A DNA stretch of 64,000 nt, taken from contig NZ_PNQZ01000061.1 of the NCBI RefSeq assembly GCF_003994335.1, positions 216,063 to 280,062 on the forward strand, written 5' to 3'. This DNA is from Asaia sp. W19. Lineage in GTDB: Bacteria; Pseudomonadota; Alphaproteobacteria; Acetobacterales; Acetobacteraceae. The notes beneath the pieces are model-generated. The model did no database searches, had not been told where the DNA came from, and saw only the letters and a list, made by a program, of their open reading frames with translations. Below, in pieces: positions 58,090 through 60,447 of this stretch (positions are counted from its first letter, which is position 1; the number at the start of each line of letters is the position of its first letter). The position numbers and the translations under genes are program-made.

Positions 58090-58880
58090 TGAAAGGGCGG
58101 GTGCTGATCGTTGCCGGGAGTGATTCCGGCGGAGGCGCTGGTATCCAGGCGGATATCAAGACGGTCAGCGCCTTCGGTGGCTTTGCGATGACAGCCATCA
58201 CGGCGGTCACCGCTCAGAATACGCAAGGCGTCTCCGCGATCGCCTGCCTGGAGCCGGACATCGTGGCTGAGCAGATGCGTATGGTGCTCGATGATCTTGG
58301 CGCCGATGTCATCAAGCTGGGGATGCTGGGCAATGCAGGGATCATGGAGGCCGTGCATGATACGCTTCTACGCTATCCGGGGATTCCCTGTGTCATTGAT
58401 CCGGTCATGATCGCCACCAGCGGTGCCCGGCTCATGACACAGGAAGGCGAGCGTATATTCCGCAAGCTCTATGGCCGATGCACCCTGCTTACCCCCAACC
58501 TCCCTGAACTGGAGGTTCTCAGTGGTGAGCGGATCAAAGGCTTGTCTGATATGCTACGCGCCGCCCGAGCGCTCGCCAAGAGCTGTGCCATCCCTCATCT
58601 CCTAGCGAAAGGGGGGCACCTGCCGGGCAACGTGCTCGTGGATGTTCTTGTTTCGGAAGGGCAGGAGATACGATTCGACGACCAGCGGATCGAGTCCCTT
58701 CATACGCATGGCACCGGGTGCACACTTTCGACCGCCATCGCAACCTGTCTGGCGCAGGGTGAGCCAATGGACACTGCCGTGGCCCGAAGCCGACGCTATG
58801 TGAGGCGGGCTATTCGGGAGGCCCCCCCGTACGGCGCGGGCAATGCCCGGCCGATGAACCATTTGGTTCCTTCAGACTGA
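58089..58880 (+). CDS. thiD: Hydroxymethylpyrimidine/phosphomethylpyrimidine kinase
   Basis: Phosphorylates HMP and HMP-P in thiamine synthesis. 263 aa, ribokinase fold: LIVAGSDSGGGAGIQADIKT, AITAVTAQNTQGVSAI, LLTPNLPELEVLSG and the anion-hole/catalytic HTHGTGCTLSTAIA. It starts at the glmM stop (TGATG) and overlaps the convergent regulator gene by 9 nt. Confidence 0.94.
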   Translation: MKGRVLIVAGSDSGGGAGIQADIKTVSAFGGFAMTAITAVTAQNTQGVSAIACLEPDIVAEQMRMVLDDLGADVIKLGMLGNAGIMEAVHDTLLRYPGIPCVIDPVMIATSGARLMTQEGERIFRKLYGRCTLLTPNLPELEVLSGERIKGLSDMLRAARALAKSCAIPHLLAKGGHLPGNVLVDVLVSEGQEIRFDDQRIESLHTHGTGCTLSTAIATCLAQGEPMDTAVARSRRYVRRAIREAPPYGAGNARPMNHLVPSD

Positions 58881-59621
58881 GGGCTGAAGCAGGGTGTGCA
58901 GGTGGTCTGTTGTGCCCGTAGGCGCGCCGCGTGCGGGTTCGGTAACGCGCGTCTCGTCGCGTAGCACGTAACCACGGCCCCATACGGTGCCGATGAGGCT
59001 GCCCGCGCCGAATTGCTGCAGTTTCCGGCGGAGCTTGCAAATGAAGACATCGATGATCTTCATCTCCGGTTCGTCGATGCCGCCATAGAGATGATTCAGG
59101 AATGCATCCTTGGTGAGGACATTCCCACGCCTCAACACAAGCAGTTCGAGAATGGCGTATTCCTTGCCCGTGAGTTGCAGAGGGTGGCCATCCACTGAGG
59201 CAGCCTTGGCGTTCAGATCGATGGAGAGCGGGCCGACCGTCATAATAGCGGTGCTGTAGCCGCGCGAACGACGCACAACCGCCTGAAGTCGAGCGACGAG
59301 CTCCTCGGTGTCGAAAGGCTTGGTGATGTAGTCATCTGCACCAGCATGAAAGGCCTTTATCTTGGCCTGTGCTCTGGTAAGGCCGCTTACGACAATAATC
59401 GGCGTCTGTATTTGTATTTTTCTGGCCCGACGGATGACCTCGTAGCCCTCAAGATCTTCGAGCTGCAGTTCCGTCATGGCGAGATCATAGTCGTAATGAC
59501 GCAGCATATCGATCGCTTCGTGCCCGGTTTGGGCATGATCGACAGTAATGCCGCTCTGTTTGAGCGTTTTGATCAGTGCGTTGGCGTTCGCCTTGTCACT
59601 TTCCACAAGAAGGAGCCGCAT
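58872..59621 (-). CDS. ctrA: CtrA-family response regulator with Glu at the phospho-site
   Basis: Master cell-cycle/motility regulator family of alphaproteobacteria: receiver plus OmpR-type winged helix. 249 aa from ATG 59621 (GGAGA upstream). It aligns without gaps to Caulobacter CtrA through the receiver. Residue 51 is Glu (DLAMTELQLEDLEG) where CtrA has the phosphorylated Asp51, and residue 8 is Ser (LLLVESDKAN) where Asp8 helps bind Mg. The output domain (LTGKEYAILELLVLRRGNVL, NHLYGGIDEPEMKIIDVFIC, GTVWGRGYVLRDE) is strongly conserved. The C-terminus carries about 20 extra residues. Confidence 0.92.
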   Translation of the reverse strand: MRLLLVESDKANANALIKTLKQSGITVDHAQTGHEAIDMLRHYDYDLAMTELQLEDLEGYEVIRRARKIQIQTPIIVVSGLTRAQAKIKAFHAGADDYITKPFDTEELVARLQAVVRRSRGYSTAIMTVGPLSIDLNAKAASVDGHPLQLTGKEYAILELLVLRRGNVLTKDAFLNHLYGGIDEPEMKIIDVFICKLRRKLQQFGAGSLIGTVWGRGYVLRDETRVTEPARGAPTGTTDHLHTLLQPSV

Positions 59622-60072
59622 TTCATCAATCTCCAGGGTTGATGTTGGTGTGGTACTACCTAAGGTTGCTGCTCGCAAGCAAAATACTTTTCTTGTGCCA
59701 AAACTTTTCAGCTGTTCCGTAACGAGTTTTTAACGCTTGAGGGTTACGATTTTTCTGTAAAGTCCCGGCTTGTCCTATGGTGATGAATGCTAGTAATCGC
59801 CAGGTAATCACGACGAAATGCCGGAATATTTGGATTTTAGAAACGCTTAATTTCACGTATATTAACGAGACGAACAAAGGCCGCTCCCACGGAGCCTGTT
59901 CACGGCCGGGTCTATACTCGTTCAGGTTGTATTTTCTTTCGCGAAGGCTTCAATACACAGGAAGGCGTCGTGTGAAGGATCATTCTTCGATTTCAGGAAT
60001 GCGCCCCTCAAACCAGGTACTGCCGAAATCCGGAAACGGGCGACAGCGGGCTGATAACCAAGAGTATGTGCC
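59622..60072. other. Intergenic region between ctrA and the FliJ-like gene
   Basis: 450 bp with no convincing gene; the left half is AT-rich. TTAACG at about 59731 and ATTAACGAG at about 59861 are half-sites of the CtrA type (TTAAC), but I see no full TTAA-N7-TTAA. It may hold divergent promoters and the remnant of a lost flagellar gene. Confidence 0.4.
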
Positions 60073-60447
60073 TTGCGACTCAGAAAGAATTCCCGGCAAC
60101 AGCGACGTCGCGAAATGCTCGATCGTGCCCAGGCGCTGACAGCCGTGTTGCGGCGCGAGACCGGCGTTCGTGCAGCCCGACGGAGCGCGGAGGCAAGCAT
60201 CGTCAGCGCCGAGCGCGCCATTCTCGAGTCGAATGATGGCGACAGCGCAGTCGAGGGATTCATGAACTGGCTGCCCGAGGCACGCCATGCCATCGACACG
60301 GCGCGGGCCGCTGAGCGCGAGGTGGCGATCGATGTCGCGGTCGCCTATCAGGCCTTCATCGTCGCGAAGAACGCCTCAACCCGGGCGGAGGAAGGTGATG
60401 AGCAGCCTTCGGAGACACGTGTGACGAGTTTGCCCGGGGAGGGGTGA
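60073..60447 (+). CDS. Possible FliJ-like flagellar export chaperone
   Basis: 124 aa, TTG start uncertain. It is helical and Arg/Ala/Glu-rich (MLDRAQALTAVLRRETGVRA, EARHAIDTARAAEREVAIDV), the coiled-coil style of FliJ proteins. In several alphaproteobacteria fliJ lies near ctrA, but the usual partner fliI is not seen here. The assignment is weak; it could equally be another small coiled-coil protein. Confidence 0.35.
   Translation: MRLRKNSRQQRRREMLDRAQALTAVLRRETGVRAARRSAEASIVSAERAILESNDGDSAVEGFMNWLPEARHAIDTARAAEREVAIDVAVAYQAFIVAKNASTRAEEGDEQPSETRVTSLPGEG

Follow-up and report, generated by a model that had tools for sequence, protein, structure and literature searches.

The 64,000-nucleotide stretch of Asaia sp. 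W19 DNA analysed here (referred to as the window) was found to carry on its minus strand an ORF for the response regulator CtrA, the translation of which (58872-59621, minus strand) begins MRLLLVESD...YDLAMTELQLEDLEG. The features identified at and around this gene are as follows.

58872-59621, minus strand: ctrA, 249 amino acids plus stop (minus-strand translation)
59268-59621, minus strand: receiver domain, residues 1-118 (gapless match to the CtrA receiver 4qpj_C)
59598-59600, minus strand: codon 8, AGT, Ser replacing the metal-binding Asp (translation and 4qpj_C alignment)
59469-59471, minus strand: codon 51, GAA, Glu replacing the phospho-acceptor Asp (translation and 4qpj_C alignment)
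59319-59321, minus strand: codon 101, AAG, the pocket Lys, retained in the window CtrA (translation and relatives)
58962-59189, minus strand: winged-helix DNA-binding domain, residues 145-220 (Pfam Trans_reg_C and conservation)
59719-59733, minus strand: CtrA-like site TTAA-N7-TTAC, predicted to be autoregulatory, 112 bases before the ctrA start codon
60073-60447, plus strand: FliJ-like ORF, likely a remnant of a ctrA-fliI-fliJ neighbourhood (homologues of the ORF)

Alignment with a solved CtrA receiver (PDB 4qpj, chain C) showed that residues 35-152 of that chain pair gaplessly with residues 1-118 of the window CtrA, with Asp facing both Glu51 and Ser8 (Asp at residue 8 of receivers being involved in metal binding). 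This bore out the preliminary description of the locus, made from the sequence alone, in which Glu (GAA) at residue 51, Ser in place of Asp at residue 8 and a gapless CtrA receiver alignment had been reported. Pfam domains Response_reg (PF00072) and Trans_reg_C (PF00486) were identified at residues 4-112 and 145-220, respectively, both above cut-off. The top NCBIfam model was that of CtrA (NF045991) with 316.1 bits (next family 166.8), a score that does not reach the cut-off of 350 bits of this model, which going by its name was presumably made for Rhodobacterales. Glu51 was found in all eight genomes of the Asaia/Swaminathania group examined, the window genome among them, thus ruling out a sequencing error or contaminant as its source.

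The assembly of the window genome (G000) is 99.99% complete with 8.08% contamination, and fourteen matches to the winged-helix domain were identified in it. No second CtrA was found among 20 matches within this genome, the next best being just 35% identical. Relatives of the window CtrA were found to be encoded by 457 stretches of public genomes, the best 80 of which are 57-88% identical to it, in contrast to the 35% or less of its own-genome paralogues; the nearest among these 80 are those of Asaia and Swaminathania. The earlier description had named a second CtrA with Asp51, or assignment to a different regulator paralogue, as grounds for giving up its interpretation. The former was searched for with the above result, which rules out a true CtrA elsewhere in the genome, and for the latter the window CtrA was found to nest with the CtrA of relatives in a tree. 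By these comparisons, the window gene is an orthologue of ctrA and the single copy found in the genome.

Comparison of gene neighbourhoods among twenty loci, each of up to 19 kb, showed that fliI adjoins ctrA both in loci with Asp51 (L196-L199, L210) and in loci with Glu51 (L202-L205, L212, L214), as called by motif search, with three loci checked against FliI models. In most loci with this arrangement, a FliJ-like frame then follows. Four homologues of the window FliJ-like ORF match TIGR02473 (FliJ), below its cut-off, with no Pfam match being found for the window ORF itself (60073-60447). In many relatives ctrA and the FliJ-like gene are separated by fliI; it was not seen at 59621-60073 of the window, and its motif was likewise not seen in Asaia loci L211 and L215, with the FliJ-like frame being retained at all three.

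Residue 51 was compared across Acetobacteraceae, a check that had been proposed with the original observation. Among the best 80 of the 457 loci, a set skewed to close relatives, 47 possess Glu51 and 33 possess Asp51. The Glu51 records are those of acetic acid bacteria (Asaia, Swaminathania, Gluconobacter, Acetobacter, Neokomagataea, Brytella, Acidomonas, Tanticharoenia, Saccharibacter and Acetobacteraceae ESL0709), with Asp51 occurring mostly elsewhere in the Acetobacteraceae, for example in Roseomonas-like genera, in Acidisphaera and in Belnapia; some Asp51 records are metagenome bins with vague or odd titles (such as Terriglobia and Acidobacteria). A set of 150 rows, consisting of the window and 149 further ctrA genes sampled from family genomes, gave Glu in 70, Asp in 56, Arg in 13, Ala in five, Asn in two, His in two, Thr in one and Ser in one. 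Glu51, Asp51 and Asn51 are all present in the genus coded g61, with residue 8 being Pro.

On a tree of 106 rows, from which exact repeats had been left out, residue 51 requires three changes, the simplest reading of which would be one origin of Glu51 in acetic acid bacteria, another in genus g82 and a return to Asp51 in genus g47. On a tree of all 150 rows it requires 17 changes, with several long branches and unsure deep placements. The two g82 records (L177, L226) lie on a branch separate from acetic acid bacteria and are likely an independent repeat. Those of g47 (L150, L152, with genomes of ~2 Mb) possess Asp51 inside the Glu51 relatives of Asaia on a long branch, together with Asn8 and Arg101, this being an apparent reversal to Asp51 without a working pocket. 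The deepest receiver decay observed was in 14 CtrA-like rows (within L291-L307; g69, g96 and g24), candidate orthologues that are ~37-42% identical to the window CtrA, with Arg51 in 13 of the 14 and the acidic pocket absent. Six broken ctrA stretches (L290, L292, L294, L309-L311; frame breaks or contig end) were left out before the 150-row tree, and the same six, plus L305 and exact repeats, before a 184-row residue table. In five of these family genomes (L290, L292, L309, L310, L311) the frames are broken or truncated, due to either loss or assembly error.

A canonical pocket was defined by an acidic residue 7, Asp at residues 8 and 51 and Lys at residue 101. Rates of change were compared between 32 canonical rows and 84 rows of acetic acid bacteria, with the 34 of 150 rows outside both groups dropped; as the absence of pocket changes in canonical rows is by definition, only the latter group is informative with regard to the pocket. 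In these 84 rows, residue 8 was found to have changed 16 times (78th percentile), residue 51 nine times (57th) and residue 101 eight times (54th). Residue 51 is acidic in 76 (Glu in 65) and Ala, His, Asn or Thr in eight, Asp8 is present in only ten, residue 101 is Arg in 27 and Ser79 is unchanged in 81. The ratio of receiver to DNA-binding domain changes per column increases from 1.34 in the canonical rows to 1.86 in acetic acid bacteria. Judged from these residue counts, the whole phosphorylation pocket is decayed across the acetic acid bacterial relatives. The DNA-binding domain is largely invariant among them, in agreement with the highly conserved output domain initially described.

CtrA is the textbook example of a cell cycle regulator controlled by a phosphorelay, with ChpT delivering its phosphate. 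Searching for ChpT with Pfam PF10090 gave no match in the window genome, with the Caulobacter control being positive. Across 397 family genomes a match was present in 236, being above cut-off in 220. However, weak matches were obtained in Glu51 genomes (G192, G009 and G389; E 3.6e-4 to 7.6e-4), and the match was merely weak (E 9.8e-4) in a genome where a real ChpT is present (G130). PF10090 on its own was thus rejected as an unsafe test for ChpT, and a profile of relatives (A1) was therefore built from 12 ChpTs of the family and applied to 80 of the 156 genomes with ctrA read. No ChpT was found with this profile in the window genome (39 of 41 candidates scored). Nine true ChpTs were identified among the 80 genomes, with scores of 98-239 bits and frame lengths of 206-389 amino acids, that of G021 being itself a member of the profile. 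No other match scored above 46 bits, and almost all of these lay in frames of at least 385 amino acids, typical of kinases.

By profile A1, ChpT was present in nine of 14 genomes with a canonical pocket and in none of 66 with a non-canonical one (Fisher p 8.6e-9, with kinship ignored). With the addition of 12 Pfam-hit genomes (E at most 1e-9, all canonical), this became 21 of 26 canonical genomes. ChpT status was scored for 92 of the 150 rows, with the other 58 unscored. When kinship was controlled for, there were three supported independent pairs, among which ChpT agrees with the pocket in 1.8 on average and is never opposite; given shared ancestry and just three such pairs, the association cannot reach significance. 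The canonical genomes without a detected ChpT are three drafts of 84-90% completeness (G087, G041, G039) and two genomes of 99% (G013, G030). The genus coded g54 contains both states, with G130 possessing ChpT and a canonical pocket and G053 neither. ChpT was not detected in g82, in which Glu51 is present in both genomes read, nor in any of 12 genomes that keep Asp51 with residue 8 lost. Glu51 is the commonest state in ChpT-less lineages, others being Asn, Ala, His, Thr and Arg at this position as well as Asp51 combined with a changed residue 8. The gene chpT was located ~6 kb from ctrA in five genomes with Asp51 (G345, G312, G021, G127, G160), and at L196, a single locus checked by models, it adjoins cheA.

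Three matches to the CckA core (E < 1e-38) were identified in the window genome, with one candidate kinase flanked by two receiver stretches. CckA-like kinases are present in 331 of the 397 family genomes, those among the matches listed being hybrid kinases of 42-53% identity, and the kinase core was thus rejected as uninformative for CckA presence. The uncoupling of CtrA from the CckA-ChpT phosphorelay that had been suggested from the window is well supported as regards ChpT, undetectable with both PF10090 and profile A1. However, as CckA-like kinases persist, only part of the relay was shown to be lost.

Regarding other means of control, the TTAA-N7-TTAC site was found at the identical distance of 112 bases in all seven Asaia/Swaminathania loci, with the flanks diverged. 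Counts of CtrA-like sites before ctrA, loci inside one genus not being independent, were 7/7 in Asaia/Swaminathania (0.37 expected by shuffling), 21/21 in Gluconobacter (1.11), 2/3 in Neokomagataea (0.21), 1/12 in Acetobacter (1.00), 1/5 in other Glu51 loci (0.22) and 1/33 in Asp51 loci (1.07). With no excess over chance in the 12 Acetobacter loci, an autoregulatory site was rejected as a general trait of Glu51 lineages. The 16-base CtrA box, allowing for one mismatch, was not enriched across the whole window (four found, 1.66 expected). Another segment of the ctrA leader, AGCAACCTTAGGTAGTA (59654-59670, minus strand), is nearly invariant in the seven Asaia/Swaminathania loci.

GcrA (PF07750) was identified in 77 of 80 genomes, including that of the window, with this model being positive in the Caulobacter control, as expected, and also in Sulfolobus acidocaldarius. 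PF07323 (DUF1465), which we take to be RcdA, had no match in any of the 80 family genomes, canonical ones included, with Caulobacter the only positive control; as it is absent from all of them, it is uninformative as a group marker. A C-terminal Ala-Ala is present in 13 of 36 rows with a canonical pocket, compared with 16 of 114 rows without one, and was rejected as a degron marker for lack of clean separation. The suggestion that CtrA might be controlled by proteolysis hence found no support, in either PF07323 or the C-terminal tails.

Because Glu occupies the phosphate site and no ChpT gene was detected, the sole CtrA found in the window genome, with Glu51 and Ser8, likely acts on DNA without phosphorylation (a probability of roughly 0.6). 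Permanent CtrA activity through Glu51 phosphomimicry, as initially suggested, would be plausible. An ancestor of acetic acid bacteria may have lost or bypassed the ChpT relay, with Glu51 probably keeping the receiver active and dimer-ready during this loss and the remaining pocket residues decaying afterwards. CtrA output would now probably be set by the amount made (autoregulation, GcrA) and not by phosphate. The fuller account, that a phosphomimetic D51E change let CtrA outlive the loss of ChpT, after which the pocket decayed freely to leave a dose-controlled transcription factor, with g82 having repeated this course, is offered tentatively, at somewhat less than even odds. Phosphomimicry would not be needed everywhere, as some relatives possess Ala, Asn, His or Thr at residue 51, and Glu51 need not have come before the other changes, as in g57, g72 and part of g61 it is residue 8 that was lost, with Asp51 retained and no ChpT found.

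These same observations make passive decay a serious rival. Here, the receiver would persist after ChpT loss as a dimerisation module, with Glu51 merely one tolerated, non-activating residue; the range of residues at position 51 (Glu, Asp, Ala, His, Asn and Thr in acetic acid bacteria, Arg in g69 and g96), its average rate of change for the protein and the loss of residue 8 from g57 and g72 with Asp51 in place are all consistent with this. However, the acidic character of residue 51 was largely kept whereas Asp8 mostly was not (76 and ten of 84 rows, respectively), and one Acetobacter group possesses Asp8 together with Glu51, fitting Glu51 having come first there; passive decay is considered unlikely, though deserving of weight. 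A receiver that became a pseudo-receiver, controlled by a ligand or protein and regulated by something besides phosphate, would be consistent with the invariance, among acetic acid bacteria, of receiver residues such as D56, R67, D96, D97, R111, A114 and R117; for other pseudo-receivers, control of this kind is treated in the available text of PMC12632262. This reading is regarded as improbable. Least probable is that CtrA is still phosphorylated, through a replacement phosphotransferase or at another residue. Substitute phosphotransferases were proposed in the accessible part of Brilli 2010 (PMC2877005), and CckA-like hybrid kinases remain, three of them in the window genome, but both the acceptor Asp and one metal-binding Asp are missing from the window CtrA.

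A CtrA that is likely independent of phosphorylation would mean that acetic acid bacteria, of industrial and ecological weight in vinegar, cellulose and the insect gut, seem to run this regulator without phosphate input. Such natural alleles permit testing of what CtrA phosphorylation serves, and of how a relay can go while its regulator stays.

The window CtrA shares with CtrA of the CckA-ChpT-CtrA relay of Caulobacter and other alphaproteobacteria its domain order, gapless receiver, single copy and strongly conserved DNA-binding domain, as well as fliI beside ctrA in both Asp51 and Glu51 relatives. It differs in possessing Glu51 and Ser8 in place of Asp, in ChpT being undetectable and in the lack of PF07323 matches among the 80 family genomes. 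Loss of chpT in Rhodospirillales is already published, going by the portions available of two papers: chpT is missing in cluster D in Brilli 2010 (PMC2877005), and Tomasch 2021 (PMC8116508) gives ctrA in 72-82% of genomes versus 27-36% for chpT, cckA and divL. These degenerate circuits differ from that of the window in that residue 51 and pocket decay are unmentioned in the same portions. Among the titles and abstract openings listed in searches of the open-licence literature (subscription papers lying outside this scope), none was on a natural Glu51 CtrA, and term counts gave no occurrence of the word CtrA in PMC4395418 and PMC12632262. Passages or term counts of PMC12733265, PMC13214618 and PMC9756655 likewise yielded nothing.

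The identical substitution at the identical residue has been engineered, with CtrA D51E being called phosphomimetic in Caulobacter and Rhodobacter (PMC12186491, PMC6363796) and a stabilised D51E allele being described as stable and active (PMC5189948), in the passages available of these papers. Unlike the engineered form, Glu51 of the window is natural and clade-wide, with residue 8 also altered and ChpT undetected. According to the available text of PMC4395418, Glu is the most frequent replacement (26%) in aspartate-less receivers, and the change from Asp to Glu alone fails to activate some response regulators (see also PMC12632262). Among such receivers, ChxR of Chlamydia, an OmpR/PhoB-type regulator, has Glu at the acceptor position and needs no phosphate (PMC4395418 and PMC3960148, as far as available), and the window CtrA shares with these the replacement of the acceptor Asp, in its case by Glu. 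From its sequence and those of its relatives, the natural, clade-wide and likely phosphorylation-independent CtrA described here is likely a further case of aspartate-less receivers, differing from ChxR-type regulators in being an orthologue of CtrA for which the lost relay gene can be traced across relatives.
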